38,755 nt of DNA from a virus, in the IMG/VR virus record IMGVR_UViG_3300020215_000096, positions 1 through 38,755 of that record. One strand, given 5' to 3'. The position numbers were made by a program, and so were the translations under genes. Below are positions 7,395 to 14,225 of this stretch, in pieces. The stretch's first letter is position 1, and each line of letters opens with the position of its first letter. Below the pieces are notes generated by a model. The model worked only from the letters and a program-made list of their open reading frames with translations. It was not told the origin of the DNA and did no database searches.

Positions 7395-7798
7395 CGCTGC
7401 TTGCGCACGTAGTCGAGATCGTACGTCGACACGCACGACGCCCCGCCTCGATTGTGGGCCGCCACAGTGGCCACACCCGACAACCTCGACGCGCCCGCGT
7501 CCTCCTGCGTTGTCGCAACACTGATATCGACGATCTCTTCCTCTGTCTCGCAGCGAGAGAGCGTCGTGATCGTGCAACCATCCGCGGAGATCCGCTGATC
7601 TACCGCCCGACACGGGCCCGCAGCAGGCCCTCCGCCCAGCATTACGACGCCCCTCCCGATCTCGGGGCAGGAGCCGGACACCTTCTTGGCGGTGAGATCG
7701 TAGGTCCCGCGGCGCTTTTCGATATCGCAAACGAAGTCGCCTCCACCGCACCCGGCGAGAGCGGCGATCCAGCAGAGCACGCACAAGCGGGACAGCAT
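7391..7798 (-). CDS. Secreted lipoprotein, candidate moron (135 aa)
   Basis: From ATG 7798-7796 the protein reads MLSRLCVLCWIAALAGC: basic n-region, hydrophobic core and a perfect lipobox LAGC with Cys at residue 17. It would be lipidated and anchored in the cell envelope. The mature part (about 118 aa) has several further Cys (for example GSCPEIG, GPCRAV, GCTITT, SRCETE) that could form disulfides. An alternative GTG start at 7822 adds eight residues. It is a single minus-strand gene among plus-strand early genes, typical of a moron expressed from a prophage. Phage lipoproteins of this size often block superinfection. That role is inferred. Confidence 0.75.
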   Translation of the reverse strand: MLSRLCVLCWIAALAGCGGGDFVCDIEKRRGTYDLTAKKVSGSCPEIGRGVVMLGGGPAAGPCRAVDQRISADGCTITTLSRCETEEEIVDISVATTQEDAGASRLSGVATVAAHNRGGASCVSTYDLDYVRKQR

Positions 7799-7901
7799 GC
7801 CCCCGGGATCGCCTAATTCCACCCTGAGTTCAAGGCCTTACAAAAAAGCCGAAAAAAGTAGTGGAAGGGGGTTGCGTTGTCTAAGGGACTTTAGTAGAAC
7901 C

Positions 7902-8024
7902 CGTCTCACGGTGAGACGAGCTGAGACACAAACGTCGGTGCTCGGGGATGAGCGGTGTAGCGGGCTGCGACAGGCTGTCGCACGCAGAGATAGTAGAGAC
8001 ACTGAACCAAGGTTCTCATAGAAC
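7902..8024 (+). promoter_or_regulatory. Second palindrome-rich control region with a rightward promoter
   Basis: CGTCTCAC-G-GTGAGACG (7902-7918) and TGCGACAG-G-CTGTCGCA (7966-7982) are perfect dyads with one central base. CTGAACCAAGGTTC (8002-8015) contains GAACC-AA-GGTTC. A plausible promoter has -35 GAGACA (7996-8001), a 17-base spacer that is exactly the third palindrome, and -10 TAGAAC (8019-8024), ending six bases before ATG 8031. An operator in the spacer is a classic repression layout. All three half-site types recur in 3494-4540. Confidence 0.55.
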
Positions 8025-8030
8025 TTTTCA

Positions 8031-8252
8031 ATGGTAGGGTACATAAATCGGCTCGTGAGAAAGCGTGCCATTGGTCGTCGGCCTATGGGCCGCCCACCCA
8101 AGCCACCGCACGAGCAGCAGAACGTTCAGGTTCAGGTCTACGTGCGAGCCGACGCTGCCGACATCCTCCTGCGCAAAGCCGAAGAGGAGCAGCGCAGCGT
8201 GAGCGATGTTGTCCGCGAGCTCATCTACCGAGAGCTGAAGATCGCGTCCTGA
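8031..8252 (+). CDS. Ribbon-helix-helix regulator with GRPP motif (73 aa)
   Basis: Residues about 35-70 (VQVQVYVRADAADILLRKAE, then SVSDVVRELIYREL) match the RHH fold: one DNA-reading strand and two helices. The basic stretch GRRPMGRPPKPP before it resembles an AT-hook-like arm. No start has a clear SD. ATG 8031 is taken because the proposed -10 lies six bases upstream (leaderless); ATG 8085, giving a 55-aa protein that starts MGRPPK, is the alternative. Its promoter overlaps a palindrome that also occurs before the leftward operon, so it may repress itself and that operon. Dimerisation is expected for the family. Confidence 0.7.
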   Translation: MVGYINRLVRKRAIGRRPMGRPPKPPHEQQNVQVQVYVRADAADILLRKAEEEQRSVSDVVRELIYRELKIAS

Positions 8253-8288
8253 ACAGACGCGCAGCGTGGCTGGGCGGGAGGAGTACAA

Positions 8289-8630
8289 GTGCCGACTTTT
8301 CTGAGGGAAGTCACAAAACAGCATGCCCCGGATCGTCGGCTGGGCACTCACACCGACTTGACGCTTCGGTTATGGAAGCGACCCGTGTCCCTACGGGGAG
8401 AACATGCCGGGCAACACGACATAACGTCTCTCATCAGACGCGTTCGTTGCCAATATTGGAAGCAACGTACCAAAGTCCGGGCTCGGCCGCAAATTTTTTC
8501 CCGCCTCAGCACCAGAGGGCTTCCCAAGGTTTCTTCCCTGGCTGCGGCCAATAATTCGTCCGAATTCTCTCATGGCCTGCAGGCGTGGGAGAGGGCGCCA
8601 ATTTCGCGACAACCTCCGGAGGTGGACTAA
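8289..8630 (+). CDS. Atypical basic protein, possibly a decayed maturase-like fragment (113 aa)
   Basis: GTG 8289 follows a strong SD (GGGAGGAG, 8277-8284), and the TAA ends one base before the next gene's GTG, as expected for a coupled gene. Codon use differs clearly from the neighbours: many codons end in A or T, while the surroundings prefer G or C. The protein is very basic. LIRRVRCQYWKQ resembles the 'LRRRLR..YWKQW' segment of group II intron maturase domains, but the rest aligns poorly and the reverse transcriptase part is absent. It could be a true recent acquisition, a remnant, or chance coding. Confidence 0.4.
   Translation: MPTFLREVTKQHAPDRRLGTHTDLTLRLWKRPVSLRGEHAGQHDITSLIRRVRCQYWKQRTKVRARPQIFSRLSTRGLPKVSSLAAANNSSEFSHGLQAWERAPISRQPPEVD
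8387..8467. repeat. Hairpins and a 14-base repeat in the atypical segment
   Basis: GTCCCTACGGGGAG (8387-8400) is repeated exactly at 23436-23449, where it overlaps the stop of a late zinc-ribbon gene. Both copies can form TCCC-TAC-GGGGA. CGTCT/AGACG (8425-8440) and CGTTGC/GCAACG around the perfect palindrome CCAATATTGG (8445-8467) follow. Their density in a lower-G+C stretch suggests a mobile or regulatory remnant. Confidence 0.4.
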
Positions 8631-8972: not shown

Positions 8973-9154
8973 AGCGTCGCCTGGAAGCCGTCGAGGTCGA
9001 TCCGTCGCTCCTCGAGCAGAACTGGACCCGCCTACGGAACGCCCCGCGGCCCCCGCGTCCGGCTCGCTGGAGCGAGCTCGGACTCGAGGCGCTGCTCGTC
9101 CTCGCTGTCGTGCTCGGGATCTACCTCGGCATGTGGCTTGGGGGGGTGCAGTGA
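8969..9154 (+). CDS. Small C-terminally anchored membrane protein (61 aa)
   Basis: ATG 8969 overlaps the preceding stop and has GGAGAGGAGAG just upstream. The first 40 residues are soluble and proline/arginine-rich (NWTRLRNAPRPPRPARW). A hydrophobic helix ends the protein (ALLVLAVVLGIYLGMWLGG, about 43-61). This suggests a cytosolic domain with a C-terminal anchor. It pairs with the 28-aa membrane peptide in the same coupled unit. No family is recognised. Confidence 0.65.
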   Translation: MKRRLEAVEVDPSLLEQNWTRLRNAPRPPRPARWSELGLEALLVLAVVLGIYLGMWLGGVQ

Positions 9155-9564
9155 AGCGGGCCATGAAGAAGGCGCCCCGGCAGCCGACGCTGCGCAGCCA
9201 GAAGAAGGCGCCCCGGCAGCCGACGCTGCGCAGCCAGAAGAAGGCGCCCCGGCAGCCGACGCTGCGCAGCCAGCGGCCGGCGCCGGCGCCGGCGCCCCTG
9301 GACGCGGAGACGCTTCCGGCCGGGCAGCGACGGGTGCTCGAGACGCTCGTGCAACTCCGGCGACAGTCCGGCGGTGTGACGCCGTCGATGCGCGAGATCG
9401 CGGCGGCGCTCGGGCTCAAGAGCCCGCACGGCATCAAGAGCCACCTCGACGCACTGGAGCGGAAGGGCTTCTTACGCCGGCGCCCACATCTCGCGCGGTA
9501 CATCGAGCTTCTCTGGGCAGCGCCCGACGCACCCACGCTCTCCGACGAGGAGATCCCGTGGTAG
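9151..9564 (+). CDS. LexA-like winged-helix protein with a repeated basic tail (137 aa)
   Basis: It starts at GTG 9151, overlapping the preceding TGA. Residues about 4-42 contain three exact copies of the 12-residue unit KKAPRQPTLRSQ, then a Pro/Ala linker. Residues about 58-115 (RRVLETLVQLRRQSGGVTPS, MREIAAALGLKSPHGIKSHL, DALERKGFLRRRP) match the DNA-binding domain of LexA, with helix-turn-helix and wing. No LexA protease domain is present, so it is a DNA-binding-only regulator. The Lys/Arg repeats may add non-specific DNA binding. It lies next to the resolvase and replication genes, so it may control or assist replication. Confidence 0.75.
   Translation: MKRAMKKAPRQPTLRSQKKAPRQPTLRSQKKAPRQPTLRSQRPAPAPAPLDAETLPAGQRRVLETLVQLRRQSGGVTPSMREIAAALGLKSPHGIKSHLDALERKGFLRRRPHLARYIELLWAAPDAPTLSDEEIPW
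9166..9273 (+). repeat. Three exact 36-bp tandem repeats
   Basis: Units at 9166-9201, 9202-9237 and 9238-9273 are identical base for base and in frame, each coding for KKAPRQPTLRSQ. Each includes a small dyad GCAGC-CGAC-GCTGC. Perfect identity points to recent expansion or selection on DNA sequence. The number of units may vary between relatives. Confidence 0.9.
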
Positions 9565-10172
9565 CCGAGGCGAGGGTCACCGTGGCCGTCGATCCCGGCC
9601 CCGTCGAGAGCGCGTACGTCGTCTACGACGGGAACGTCATCGAGGCGGGGAGGGAGCAGAACGCCGCCGTCCTCGAGTTCGTCCGCGGGGCCGCGGCGTT
9701 CGAACCAGCGCGGCTCGTCGTTGAGAAGATCGCCTCGTACGGGATGCCCGTCGGCGAGGAGACCTTCCAGACGTGCGTCTGGACCGGGCGCCTCGTCCAG
9801 CGGTGGGCGGACGAGCGGTTCCGGGTCGGGTTCGACCCGCAGTGGCACGAGATCACGCGGCTCCGGGTGAAGCTGGCCCTCTGCCACCACCCGCACGCCA
9901 AGGACTCGAACGTGCGTCAGGCGCTCCTGGACCGCTTCGGCGGGAAGAGCAGGGCGATCGGATCAAAGAAGGCGAGGGGGCCGCTCTACGCCCTCTCCGG
10001 CGACATGTGGGCGGCCCTCGCGGTCGCGGTGGCTTGGAACGACATCAACGGGGGGGGCCTGGAGATGCTTCGTGTCAATTCGGTACCGGAAGGTCAGCCA
10101 GAAGCTCCACGCGAGTGCGAGCTTTCGCGCGCTGTCGGCGCCAAAACCCAACGCGAGAACCCTGTGGGTTGA
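9558..10172 (+). CDS. RuvC-like Holliday junction resolvase (204 aa)
   Basis: GTG 9558 overlaps the end of the winged-helix gene by seven bases. The protein shows the RNase H-like resolvase set: VAVDPGPVES with Asp12, RLVVEKIASYG with Glu56, and SGDMWAALAVAVA with Asp149 in the C-terminal acidic helix. RuvC-type enzymes cut four-way DNA junctions, resolving recombination and branched replication intermediates before packaging. The last 34 or so residues extend past the conserved core and overlap the next gene out of frame by 101 bases. Next to the replication and recombination genes this role fits well. The overall fold assignment is firm; substrate detail is inferred. Confidence 0.8.
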   Translation: MVAEARVTVAVDPGPVESAYVVYDGNVIEAGREQNAAVLEFVRGAAAFEPARLVVEKIASYGMPVGEETFQTCVWTGRLVQRWADERFRVGFDPQWHEITRLRVKLALCHHPHAKDSNVRQALLDRFGGKSRAIGSKKARGPLYALSGDMWAALAVAVAWNDINGGGLEMLRVNSVPEGQPEAPRECELSRAVGAKTQRENPVG

Positions 10173-11046
10173 GCTCTTGATCGGCCGCTACACATCCATG
10201 ATCCCGGGCGTCGTCATCGCCGGCCCCGCCGCGCTCGCCGAAGCATGCGGGAATTGGACCGCCTCGGAAATGCTCGAGTGTTTCAGCGAGCTCGAGCGCC
10301 AAGGCATGGCGAAGGCGGACTGGTCCGCGCATCTCGTCTGGCTCCCCGGAGCTGTTGCGCAGGGAGACCTACACAAGCCCGAGAGCCCCAACGTCGTGCG
10401 CGCATGGGGCAAGCGGTGGCTCGAGGTCCCGAAGTGCCCGCTGAAAAGCGAGGCATTCCAAGCACTAAAAGCCTTCGTCGAAGGCTTCGGGGAAGCCTTC
10501 GGGGAAGCCTTCGGGGAAGCCTTCGGTCACCCTTCCTCGAATCAGGAACAGGAACAGGAATATGATCTTAATGCACGGAGCGGCGAAAACGCCGCGTCCG
10601 TGCCGCCGTCGGGTCCGGGTCGGTCCGGCGAGGGAGAAACCCGAGGAGCCGGTTCATCCACTGAGGTGAGCCCGCCCACTGAGGCGTCCGCGGCCACTGA
10701 GCCACGGGGAACCCTCCAGCTCCTTCCCCCGACGACTCCGGAGCGGCCGGTGCTCGAGTTCCCGTGTCGGCCAGTTGGCACGCGCGGAGGCCGAGCGCCG
10801 GACCGGTGGCCACTCACCCGGGAGAGGCTCGCCGAGTTCGAGCAGCGTTTCCCGGAGCTCGATGTCCTTCTGCATTGCCGGAAGGCGCTCGAGTGGTGCC
10901 ACAGCCGCGACGCAGGCAAGCGCAAGACGTACGGCGGGATGCCGAAGTTCCTCGGCACTTGGCTCGCCAACGAGCTTGAGCGCCAGGCGCAGCGGGGCAC
11001 CGGCCCGCCCAAGCGCGACACACGGCCCGCGCTGCCGCAACTCTAG
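10072..11046 (+). CDS. O-type replication initiation protein (324 aa)
   Basis: GTG 10072 has GGAG eight bases upstream. The N-terminus (YRKVSQKLHASASFRALSAP, then PNARTLWVELLIGRYTSMIP) matches the phage replication proteins with 'FRALS.P.PNAQTLW.YLL..P.TT.IPG', a winged-helix initiator group comparable to lambda O. A repeated GEAFGEAFGEAFG at about residues 139-153 and QEQEQEYD after it are encoded by tandem DNA repeats likely to be the origin. The C-terminal domain (LLHCRKALEWCHSRDAGKRK, then LGTWLANELERQ) resembles the helicase-contacting part of such proteins. The DnaB-type helicase gene follows directly, as in primosome pairs. Confidence 0.75.
   Translation: MSIRYRKVSQKLHASASFRALSAPKPNARTLWVELLIGRYTSMIPGVVIAGPAALAEACGNWTASEMLECFSELERQGMAKADWSAHLVWLPGAVAQGDLHKPESPNVVRAWGKRWLEVPKCPLKSEAFQALKAFVEGFGEAFGEAFGEAFGHPSSNQEQEQEYDLNARSGENAASVPPSGPGRSGEGETRGAGSSTEVSPPTEASAATEPRGTLQLLPPTTPERPVLEFPCRPVGTRGGRAPDRWPLTRERLAEFEQRFPELDVLLHCRKALEWCHSRDAGKRKTYGGMPKFLGTWLANELERQAQRGTGPPKRDTRPALPQL
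10471..10573 (+). other. Candidate replication origin: five 12-bp iterons and an A+T-rich stretch
   Basis: Five tandem 12-mers lie at 10471-10530: GCCTTCGTCGAA, GGCTTCGGGGAA, GCCTTCGGGGAA twice and GCCTTCGGTCAC. Across unit borders they form the dyad GAAG-C-CTTC. CAGGAA is then repeated three times (10543-10560), followed by TATGATCTTAATG, one of the most A+T-rich spots of the module. This copies the plan of lambda ori, where iterons and an A+T-rich box sit inside gene O. Initiator binding and unwinding here are inference. Confidence 0.6.
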
Positions 11047-11085: not shown

Positions 11086-12372
11086 GTGAGCCGCTACACC
11101 GACACCAAGCTGGAACGAGCCGTCCTGGCGGCCGTGCTGCAAGACGGCGACAACACGCGCGCGGCGTCCGTCGTCGCCCGGCTGTCGGAGGTCGACTTCA
11201 CCGACCCGTTCGCCCTGCGTGCGTACCGCGGTCTGGCGCGGTTGGCCGCCGAGGGGCGTCCGCTCGATCTGCACCTTCTCGCCGAAGTGCTGCGAGCGGA
11301 CCCCCTCGGCGCGAAGGTCGAGGGCAGCCTCGGCGTGCTCGCAGCGGAGGATGTCCTACCGTGGCACTCTGGCGCCTACGCGGACCGACTCCGAGAGCTA
11401 GCGCAACGAAGGGCCCTAGCTTCGCTCAGAATCGACGAAGTGCTGGAGGGTACCCAGACCGCGGCCGAGGCGGTTGCGTCGATTAGAGCGCAACTGGAGG
11501 CCATCGACGCGCGTGGTGCAGCGACCGAGGCGTTCGGGGGGCTCGAGATCGCCCGGGATGCGCACGAGCGGCTGCGAGAGGGTCACGAGGATACCCCGTG
11601 TCGCAGCAGGGGACTCCCGACAGGTCTGCTGAAGGTGGATGGGTGCCTCCGTGGGATGCGGCCCGGCGGTCTGTATGTCGCTGCGGCTCGGCCAGGGCAG
11701 GGGAAGACGGCGCTCGCGATCAACATCGCGATGCGGTGTGCGCTCCGGGAGCGTGGGCCGGTCGTCTTCTATTCCTACGAGATGTCGCGGGCGGAGCTCG
11801 GCGACCGGATCGCGGCGAGTGAGGCGCGCGTCAGCCTCGAAGACCTCGTCGCCGGGAGGTTGGCGACGAAGGAGATCGAGCGGGTCACTGCGACGCTCGC
11901 GAGGCTGGGGGATGCTCCGTTCCATCTCGTCGACCAGGATTTGCGCCTCGAGCAAATGGGCTCGCTGGCGCTTCGGCTTCACGCGCGGGCGCCGCTGGCG
12001 CTTGTCGTTGTGGACTATCTCCAGCTCGTGAAGACCGCCGTTCGGCGGGACTCTCGCGAGCAGGAGGTCGCAGAGGTCGCGCGGGGGCTGAAGCGGCTCG
12101 CGCGGTCGGTTGGTGCGCCGGTTCTCGCTCTGGCGCAGCTCAACCGGGAGCTCGAACGGCGGGAGGACAAACGGCCCCGGCTCGCGGATCTGCGGGAGTC
12201 TGGGGATATCGAGGCGGCGGCAGACGCGGTGCTCGCGATCCACCGGCCGCACTACTACGACGAGAGCGCGGACCCGCAACTCGCGGAGATCCTCGTGCTC
12301 AAACACAGGCACGGCCGAATCGGCATCGCGACGGTGCGATGGACGGGCGAGCACGTGCGCTTCGACGACTGA
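11086..12372 (+). CDS. dnaB: Replicative DNA helicase, DnaB type (428 aa)
   Basis: GTG 11086 has GGAGG nine bases upstream. An N-terminal DnaB domain (about 1-115) precedes a RecA-like motor: Walker A ARPGQGKTAL (201-210), Walker B LVVVDYLQL (306-314), and the DnaB signature QLNRELERREDKRP (351-364) with RESGDIEAAAD (370-380). It would form a hexamer that unwinds the replication fork in the 5'-3' direction. The length agrees with the family (about 430-470). It follows the O-type initiator, likely its loader or partner. No phage DNA polymerase is visible, so host polymerase is probably used. Confidence 0.92.
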   Translation: MSRYTDTKLERAVLAAVLQDGDNTRAASVVARLSEVDFTDPFALRAYRGLARLAAEGRPLDLHLLAEVLRADPLGAKVEGSLGVLAAEDVLPWHSGAYADRLRELAQRRALASLRIDEVLEGTQTAAEAVASIRAQLEAIDARGAATEAFGGLEIARDAHERLREGHEDTPCRSRGLPTGLLKVDGCLRGMRPGGLYVAAARPGQGKTALAINIAMRCALRERGPVVFYSYEMSRAELGDRIAASEARVSLEDLVAGRLATKEIERVTATLARLGDAPFHLVDQDLRLEQMGSLALRLHARAPLALVVVDYLQLVKTAVRRDSREQEVAEVARGLKRLARSVGAPVLALAQLNRELERREDKRPRLADLRESGDIEAAADAVLAIHRPHYYDESADPQLAEILVLKHRHGRIGIATVRWTGEHVRFDD

Positions 12373-13101: not shown

Positions 13102-14225
13102 CCCACGCAGAGCACAGCGCCGAAGGGCTCGACGTGATCGAGGAGAACGCGATCAGGCGGAACCAAGCCATGGTCGCGAACATCCTCGGCTTCGACGAGA
13201 ACGACCCGAAGCTCCCGCGGCTGGTCCCGAACACGCCGAGCCCGGAGATCCGGTTCTTGCCGAACTGCGGTGGCACGCCGGATCTGATGCTCCTCGGCCC
13301 GTCCGACGCGGCGGCGATCTGCGGCCTCTCGCCGTACCAGACCGCCCTCGATGTCTACGCCCGGGTCGTCGAGAAGTATCGGGCCCCAGTCTTGCCGCAG
13401 ATGCGGCGAGGGCATCGGTTCCAGGGCGTTGTGCTCGCGTGGATGCGGGAGGAACTCGCCGCCGCCGGCCGGTGCGGCTCCGTCGAGAAGTGGCACGAGA
13501 ACGTCCTCATCGAGGACCGGACGCGTATGTGGCTGCGCGCCAACATGGACGCGTGCGACGACCGCGTGCTGCGGCAGGACGGGCCGGGCGTCGTCCTTGA
13601 GGCGAAGACGCACCGCTCGGCGGACGGCTACGGCCCCGCGTGGAGCGCAGAGGTGCCGGAGCACGAGATGCTCCAGGTGCAGCTCTACCTCCACCTCTCG
13701 AAGGCTGGCGTCGCGTTCCTCGGCGCGCTCTTCGGCCTCGACGACCTGCGCGTGTTCGAGATCCCGCCAGACAGCGATGTCGGGAACCTCGCGCTCGAAG
13801 CCTTGGAGCGGTTCCACCGGGACCACATCCGGGCCCGGAAGCCGCCGCACCCAGGCGGGCCGGCGATCCTCCCGAAGCCGAAGGGGAAGGTCGCCGGCCG
13901 GAAGGCGTCGCCGTGGGAACTCGAGCTCGCGCGCCGCCTCAAGAGCCTCCGAGCCGAGGCGAAGCGCCTCAGCGCGGAGGCGAAGGAGGCCGAGGAGAAG
14001 CTCCGGCGCGGCGTCCACGAGCACGGACCGGTCATCGACGAAGAGGCGGGGCTCCGTATCTCCCTCGCCGCGTGCCGAGGGCGCCCAAAATGGGAGCAGA
14101 TCGCGCGTTGTGTCGCGACGCCGGAGCGCCTGGAGCAACTCGCTGAGGGGCTCCGCGGCGAGAACTACTACCGTATGTCGCTCCGGTGGAAGGGCGAGAA
14201 GGAAGAGGTCGAAGATGAGCGGTAA
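13098..14225 (+). CDS. YqaJ/lambda-Exo-type exonuclease (375 aa)
   Basis: GTG 13098 overlaps the previous stop. The core has GPSDAAAICGLSPYQTALDVY (67-87), RRGHRFQGVVLAWMREE (103-119), NMDACDD with Asp151, VVLEAKTH with Glu168 and Lys170, and MLQVQLYLHL (191-200). These are the PD-(D/E)xK motifs of the YqaJ viral recombinase family, which digests one strand of duplex DNA ends to give a 3' tail. Gln109 stands where this family usually has a metal-binding Glu in 'RGH..E'. The C-terminal third is a charged coiled coil plus a small extra domain. The RecA-like partner gene follows directly. Confidence 0.8.
   Translation: MTHAEHSAEGLDVIEENAIRRNQAMVANILGFDENDPKLPRLVPNTPSPEIRFLPNCGGTPDLMLLGPSDAAAICGLSPYQTALDVYARVVEKYRAPVLPQMRRGHRFQGVVLAWMREELAAAGRCGSVEKWHENVLIEDRTRMWLRANMDACDDRVLRQDGPGVVLEAKTHRSADGYGPAWSAEVPEHEMLQVQLYLHLSKAGVAFLGALFGLDDLRVFEIPPDSDVGNLALEALERFHRDHIRARKPPHPGGPAILPKPKGKVAGRKASPWELELARRLKSLRAEAKRLSAEAKEAEEKLRRGVHEHGPVIDEEAGLRISLAACRGRPKWEQIARCVATPERLEQLAEGLRGENYYRMSLRWKGEKEEVEDER

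Follow-up and report, generated by a model that had tools for sequence, protein, structure and literature searches.

A probable phage replication origin embedded in its own initiator gene, with DNA signals kept in distant relatives

In phage lambda, the helicase function is encoded beside the initiator gene. The lambda iterons lie in the middle of that gene, and the sequence that opens comes after them (PMC7466680). The Rep protein of pSK41 binds, through a winged-helix N-domain, four Rep boxes located centrally in its own gene (PMC5703833).

We analyzed a window of 38,755 bp, which is a whole IMG/VR virus record. Judged from its sequence, the stretch at 10469–10603 is very probably a phage replication origin embedded in its own initiator gene, and its layout suggests that it would work as lambda ori and the origins of pSK41/RepA_N plasmids do. 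As in lambda, the iterons are inside the initiator gene, between the N- and C-terminal domains. As in pSK41, the repeats lie centrally in the initiator gene, whose N-domain is predicted to be a winged helix. For lambda, four iterons (six in Stx phages) and a region rich in A+T are described; the window has five iterons with 12-bp spacing. Unlike lambda, the element has 7-bp cores, a (CAGGAR)n tract, often a hairpin, and usually a second cluster upstream, and the neighbouring gene in the window is DnaB itself, not a P-type loader. Unlike the window and its relatives, pSK41 is described, in the accessible part of PMC5703833, with no mention of a CAGGAR tract or a recognition-helix cluster. The original prediction had been a lambda ori architecture with different sequences. 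The layout held, but there was no lambda O family match, and the 12-bp spacing and the second cluster of most relatives set the element apart.

The locus and its gene context

The features of the locus, in window coordinates, are as follows.

10072..11046, plus strand: initiator gene, 324 aa (ORF call, fold prediction)
Initiator residues about 1–120: N-domain, predicted winged helix (model)
Initiator residues about 133–165: linker, encoded by array and tract
10469..10528, plus strand: iteron array, five AAGSCTT cores (Tandem Repeats Finder, sequence)
10528..10534, plus strand: possible degenerate sixth iteron, CACCCTT, 11 bp past the last core (sequence)
10540..10560, plus strand: hexamer tract AAT(CAGGAA)3, counterpart of the AAT(CAGGAR)n of relatives
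10561..10572, plus strand: A+T-rich stretch, TATGATCTTAAT (composition)
10573..10603, plus strand: hairpin, GCACGGAGCGGCGAAAACGCCGCGTCCGTGC, 13-bp stem with a bulge and an AAAA loop
11086..12372, plus strand: replicative helicase, DnaB family (PF03796, PF00772; profile match)

The five cores are found at 10469, 10481, 10493, 10505, and 10517, with a spacing of exactly 12 bp. Tandem Repeats Finder reported 10469–10526 with a period of 12, 4.8 copies, a score of 95, and the unit AAGCCTTCGGGG, as well as three copies of CAGGAA at 10543–10560. The array had been located correctly in the original prediction, but its start is two bases before the 10471 given there. The five tandem 12-mers with internal dyads, the three CAGGAA units, and the A+T-rich stretch described within the initiator gene were all confirmed. 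The next gene, described as a DnaB-type helicase, is indeed DnaB (PF03796, E 1.6e-75, for the product of 11086–12372); it starts 40 bp past the end of the initiator ORF.

The core AAGSCTT is nearly palindromic, and inverted repeats of 20–27 nt consequently overlie the array. The codon register of the array is GAA-GCC-TTC (EAFG). When the window gene was shuffled synonymously, with protein and codon usage fixed, its four 12-bp-spaced core pairs were matched in 2 of 5,000 shuffles, and there are no such pairs elsewhere in the 38,755-bp record. The tandem CAGGAR run at 10543–10560 is the only one in the record; the top strand of the tract is purine-rich, with YTCCTG on the bottom strand. The 40 bp from 10533 hold 15/40 G+C; only two other places in the record are as rich in A+T. 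The hairpin at 10573–10603, which the original prediction did not include, had a z of −4.4 (0/200 shuffles). Rfam and tRNA scans gave no matches.

A GC-skew change had been looked to as a sign of an origin at this site, and none was found: over the whole record, the cumulative minimum lies at about 7–8.5 kb and the sign is unchanged at the array. GC skew appears to track gene orientation here, which makes it uninformative as an origin test. Near the minimum, 7500–8500 is the region of lowest G+C in the record (59%) and holds two of its three most A+T-rich 40-mers. In ORF 9133–9564, whose product is a winged-helix protein of the LexA type, three nearly perfect 36-bp repeats at 9160–9273 encode KKAPRQPTLRSQ three times over at the N-terminal end. 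The ORF at 13351–15348 matches a Sak4-like ssDNA annealing protein over residues 309–556 (E 7e-43); with 665 aa, it far exceeds this match in length.

The search for the family of the window initiator revealed only a 10.6-bit PHBC_N match in Pfam, below the cut-off, and in PHROGs only phrog_25711, a family of unknown function (E 0.0017). Neither database gave a lambda O family match. The C-terminal part is a domain without a recognised family, and the C-terminal halves of some relatives match phrog_345, "replication initiation O-like." No RepA_N domain was matched in Pfam or in the PDB sequence search, where the N-domain profile gave only weak matches, to DHT03 proteins. The N-domain was modelled as a winged helix with a pLDDT of 91.9, and the array region was predicted to be helical. 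The model aligned over 82–87 residues to 4pql, 4pt7, 4pta, and 5kbj, which we take to be RepA_N-type initiator structures, with a Z of about 6, no better than to CRP-type winged helices. Since there was no sequence match, and since the fold match to RepA_N was no better than that to the CRP type, membership in lambda O or RepA_N was not assigned.

Selection on the DNA in relatives

Viral contigs and bacterial genomes, scanned with protein and profile queries, yielded about 95 N-domain relatives, mostly 40–50% identical to the window over the N-domain. They include loci in the genomes of Paraburkholderia, Pandoraea, Trinickia, Granulicella, a Syntrophaceae bacterium, and others. A representative set of 63 relatives had <90% mutual N-domain identity. 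In most relatives, 12-bp-spaced iterons are followed by AAT(CAGGAR)n (n = 2–10 as counted), and in 32 of 61 loci a DnaB gene follows within 3 kb. With the closest relatives found only about 40–50% identical, the evidence for synonymous conservation comes from the relatives and not directly from the window's own copy.

Conservation at synonymous sites in relatives had been named as a check on the origin, and the repeats pass it. The 63 representatives together contain 304 AASSSTT words, against 112 ± 9 in synonymous shuffles (maximum 133), and 132 pairs of such words at 12 bp, against 8.7 ± 2.5 (maximum 15). The initiator genes, 61 kb in all, hold 133 core pairs, and 544 kb of flanking sequence only 4; at least three tandem hexamers were seen at 46 loci in initiator genes versus 0 in flanks. 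Per-codon constraint peaks at the array and tract and at a stretch about 200 bp upstream. Codon choice in array and tract was compared with the rest of the same genes at 46 loci: CCT made up 70% of proline codons versus 15%, GCT 62% of alanine versus 15%, AAG 97% of lysine versus 60%, AAT 98% of asparagine versus 23%, and CAG 99.6% of glutamine versus 66%.

The reading frame of the tract was taken from ORFs with an initiator N-domain, as choosing the longest ORF gave false frame switches. The tract is read as QEQE in 67 of the 75 initiator ORFs found by pattern and as GTGT in the other 8, which are spread over several N-domain lineages; five frame-switched tracts were among the first 63 representatives. 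The iteron core is in codon phase 1 in 112/117 cases in the upstream cluster and in phase 0 in 148/192 downstream.

The repeats might instead serve a repetitive helix or linker of the protein (EAFGEAFG, QEQEQE), with the DNA repeat as a by-product of slippage and codon use. This would agree with an array and tract that are in frame, with the predicted helix of the array, and with QEQE as the commonest reading, but it is contradicted by the frame switches to GTGT; the two codon phases, the codons unlike those of the rest of the gene, and a copy without coding in locus L154 also stand against it. We consider it very improbable. As far as sequence comparison goes, these results show that selection in the relatives acts on the DNA itself, independently of the encoded protein.

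A second iteron cluster and concerted change of words

In most relatives, iterons also form a second cluster (GAAGCCTTCGACGAAGCCTTCCGGGAAGTCTT..., protein EAFDEAFREVF) some 200 bp upstream; the window has no iterons at this position. The segment coded by this cluster corresponds to the predicted third helix of the window N-domain, residues 64–76. From the fold, we infer that the iteron-encoded helix would be the DNA-contacting recognition helix.

Where a lineage has another iteron word, the two clusters share it. Both carry AACSGTT in L028, L038, and L070, AAGGGTT in L018, L133, and L163, AAGGGTG in L084, AAGGGGCTT in Acinetobacter phage A3926.3, and AAGGCTAA in Citrobacter phage Chris1. Matching of words between a locus's own clusters gave a trace of 136 versus 58 ± 13 when permuted, and 0/50,000 permutations were as high; the 14 loci were picked for differing words and some are related, so that the exact P is not reliable. 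In these comparisons, the two clusters of a locus change their word jointly. The word also tracks the initiator lineage, as expected for the initiator's own binding site.

The initiators of Chris1, A3926.3, and Klebsiella phage ST13-OXA48phi12.4 are homologous or distantly similar to that of the window. The Acinetobacter and Klebsiella phages have two iteron clusters and a CAGGAR-like tract, with words that differ from the window's (AAGGGGCTT, AAGGGTT), and Chris1 has a CAG-rich variant tract. None of the feature tables examined for these phages marks an origin at the site, and no description of the iteron/CAGGAR layout was found among the results listed from the literature searched, mostly outside subscription journals.

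Iterons can double as regulatory sites in iteron plasmids, and both clusters are in a transcribed region; the repeats could be an operator array for autoregulation of the initiator rather than an origin. Both clusters are, however, deep in the gene and not at a promoter, neither tract nor hairpin has an evident part to play in repression, and the position fits that of the origins established inside the initiator genes of lambda and pSK41 (PMC7466680, PMC5703833). An operator array is highly unlikely in our judgement.

The claim that the encoded peptide is shaped by the DNA repeat was supported by the conservation at synonymous sites, the multiple frames, and the concerted change of words, and these lines together support the reading as an in-gene origin. 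The absence of the upstream cluster from the window and of a skew switch counts against an origin, as do three exceptions among the 63 representatives. Most relatives keep the repeats with the protein, but L094 retains the N-domain and lacks both iterons and tract; in L095 and L091, different repeats occupy the position of the array.

The CAGGAR tract and the hairpin

The A+T-rich stretch had been named as an element of the origin. It is present in the window, as a 12-bp stretch with locally low G+C, but in relatives the excess is confined to about 10 bp, the 10 bp after the tract having an A+T content 22 percentage points above the gene mean. By sequence conservation, the neighbour kept beside the iterons in relatives is the (CAGGAR)n tract, often with a hairpin, more than an A+T-rich box. 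Since CAGGAR is constant across differing iteron words and N-domains, it is probably used by something common to these phages or their hosts; a role in helicase loading or priming is our guess. CTG is the start triplet of E. coli primase, and the bottom strand of the tract presents CTG every 6 nt. The tract varies to CAGTTAA (L023), CAGATAA (L010), and CAAGAR (L024, L084). Several variants retain CAG at 6–7 nt, and L024 and L084, which carry CAA instead, would be counterexamples to a primase-start reading. The initiator gene of L082 has a variant tract spaced by 7 nt, CAGGAAG CAGGAAA CAGGAAG CAGGATA.

Stems of at least 6 bp occur within 60 nt past the tract in 31 of 74 loci, compared with 5, 6, and 2 of 74 in the next three 60-nt windows. 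The stems vary in sequence with the dyad retained, several with a CTNNCG centre. Speculatively, the hairpin may be a loading or priming site in single-stranded DNA or an RNA signal. These hairpins, with their varied stems and kept dyads (31/74 vs. 2–6/74 in controls), would also suit a phage signal of a different kind, either in DNA, for packaging or partition, or in RNA, for example an antitermination hairpin. In almost every locus examined, though, the gene that holds the tract is of the initiator type, and the word of the iterons follows the initiator lineage, which leaves such a signal with very little probability.

For the in-gene origin, we propose the following steps. The winged-helix domain of the initiator would bind the AAGSCTT iterons spaced by 12 bp, and the nucleoprotein formed would strain the adjoining CAGGAA tract and A+T-rich stretch into opening. 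Going by the gene order and by lambda and pSK41, the C-terminal part of the initiator might recruit the neighbouring phage DnaB, which would load on the exposed strand, where primase would begin synthesis. More speculatively, the hairpin could fold once single-stranded and aid loading or priming, or could act in the transcript.

These signals recur in the DNA of dozens of phages that are only distantly related, even where the protein reads differently, and this speaks for a widespread type of origin. It is possible, although we hold this tentatively, that they form a class whose initiators, with differing words, share one platform for opening, loading, and priming, a common (CAGGAR)n tract often accompanied by a hairpin, and in which one cluster lies in the recognition-helix codons, site and reader changing together. 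Origins are rarely annotated in phage genomes, and AASSSTT iterons at 12-bp spacing with (CAGGAR)n after them could serve as a signature that locates them by sequence in many temperate phages, the named Acinetobacter and Klebsiella phages among them. A stretch retained through changes of reading frame also illustrates cleanly how the function of DNA can prevail over protein sequence, and the joint change of two clusters and the encoded helix makes initiator–site co-evolution directly testable.

The copy in L154 (3894–4040) consists of six AAxxxTT words at a spacing of 11–12 bp together with (CAGGAA)6 and a hairpin. The gap in which it lies holds no long ORF, and the copy resembles the in-gene element of L122 and L170. 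It follows phage structural-type genes, and an ORF like the C-terminal part of the initiator lies about 3.7 kb away, at the other end of the contig. BLAST of the element against phages gave no match, with a filter that masks simple repeats. The copy is apparently non-coding and may be a second origin; it could also be a decayed duplicate, against which the retained spacing argues without proving the point. In the representative set, the only runs of 12-bp-spaced AASSSTT outside the initiator gene begin at 1393 in L066 and at 4495 in L072.
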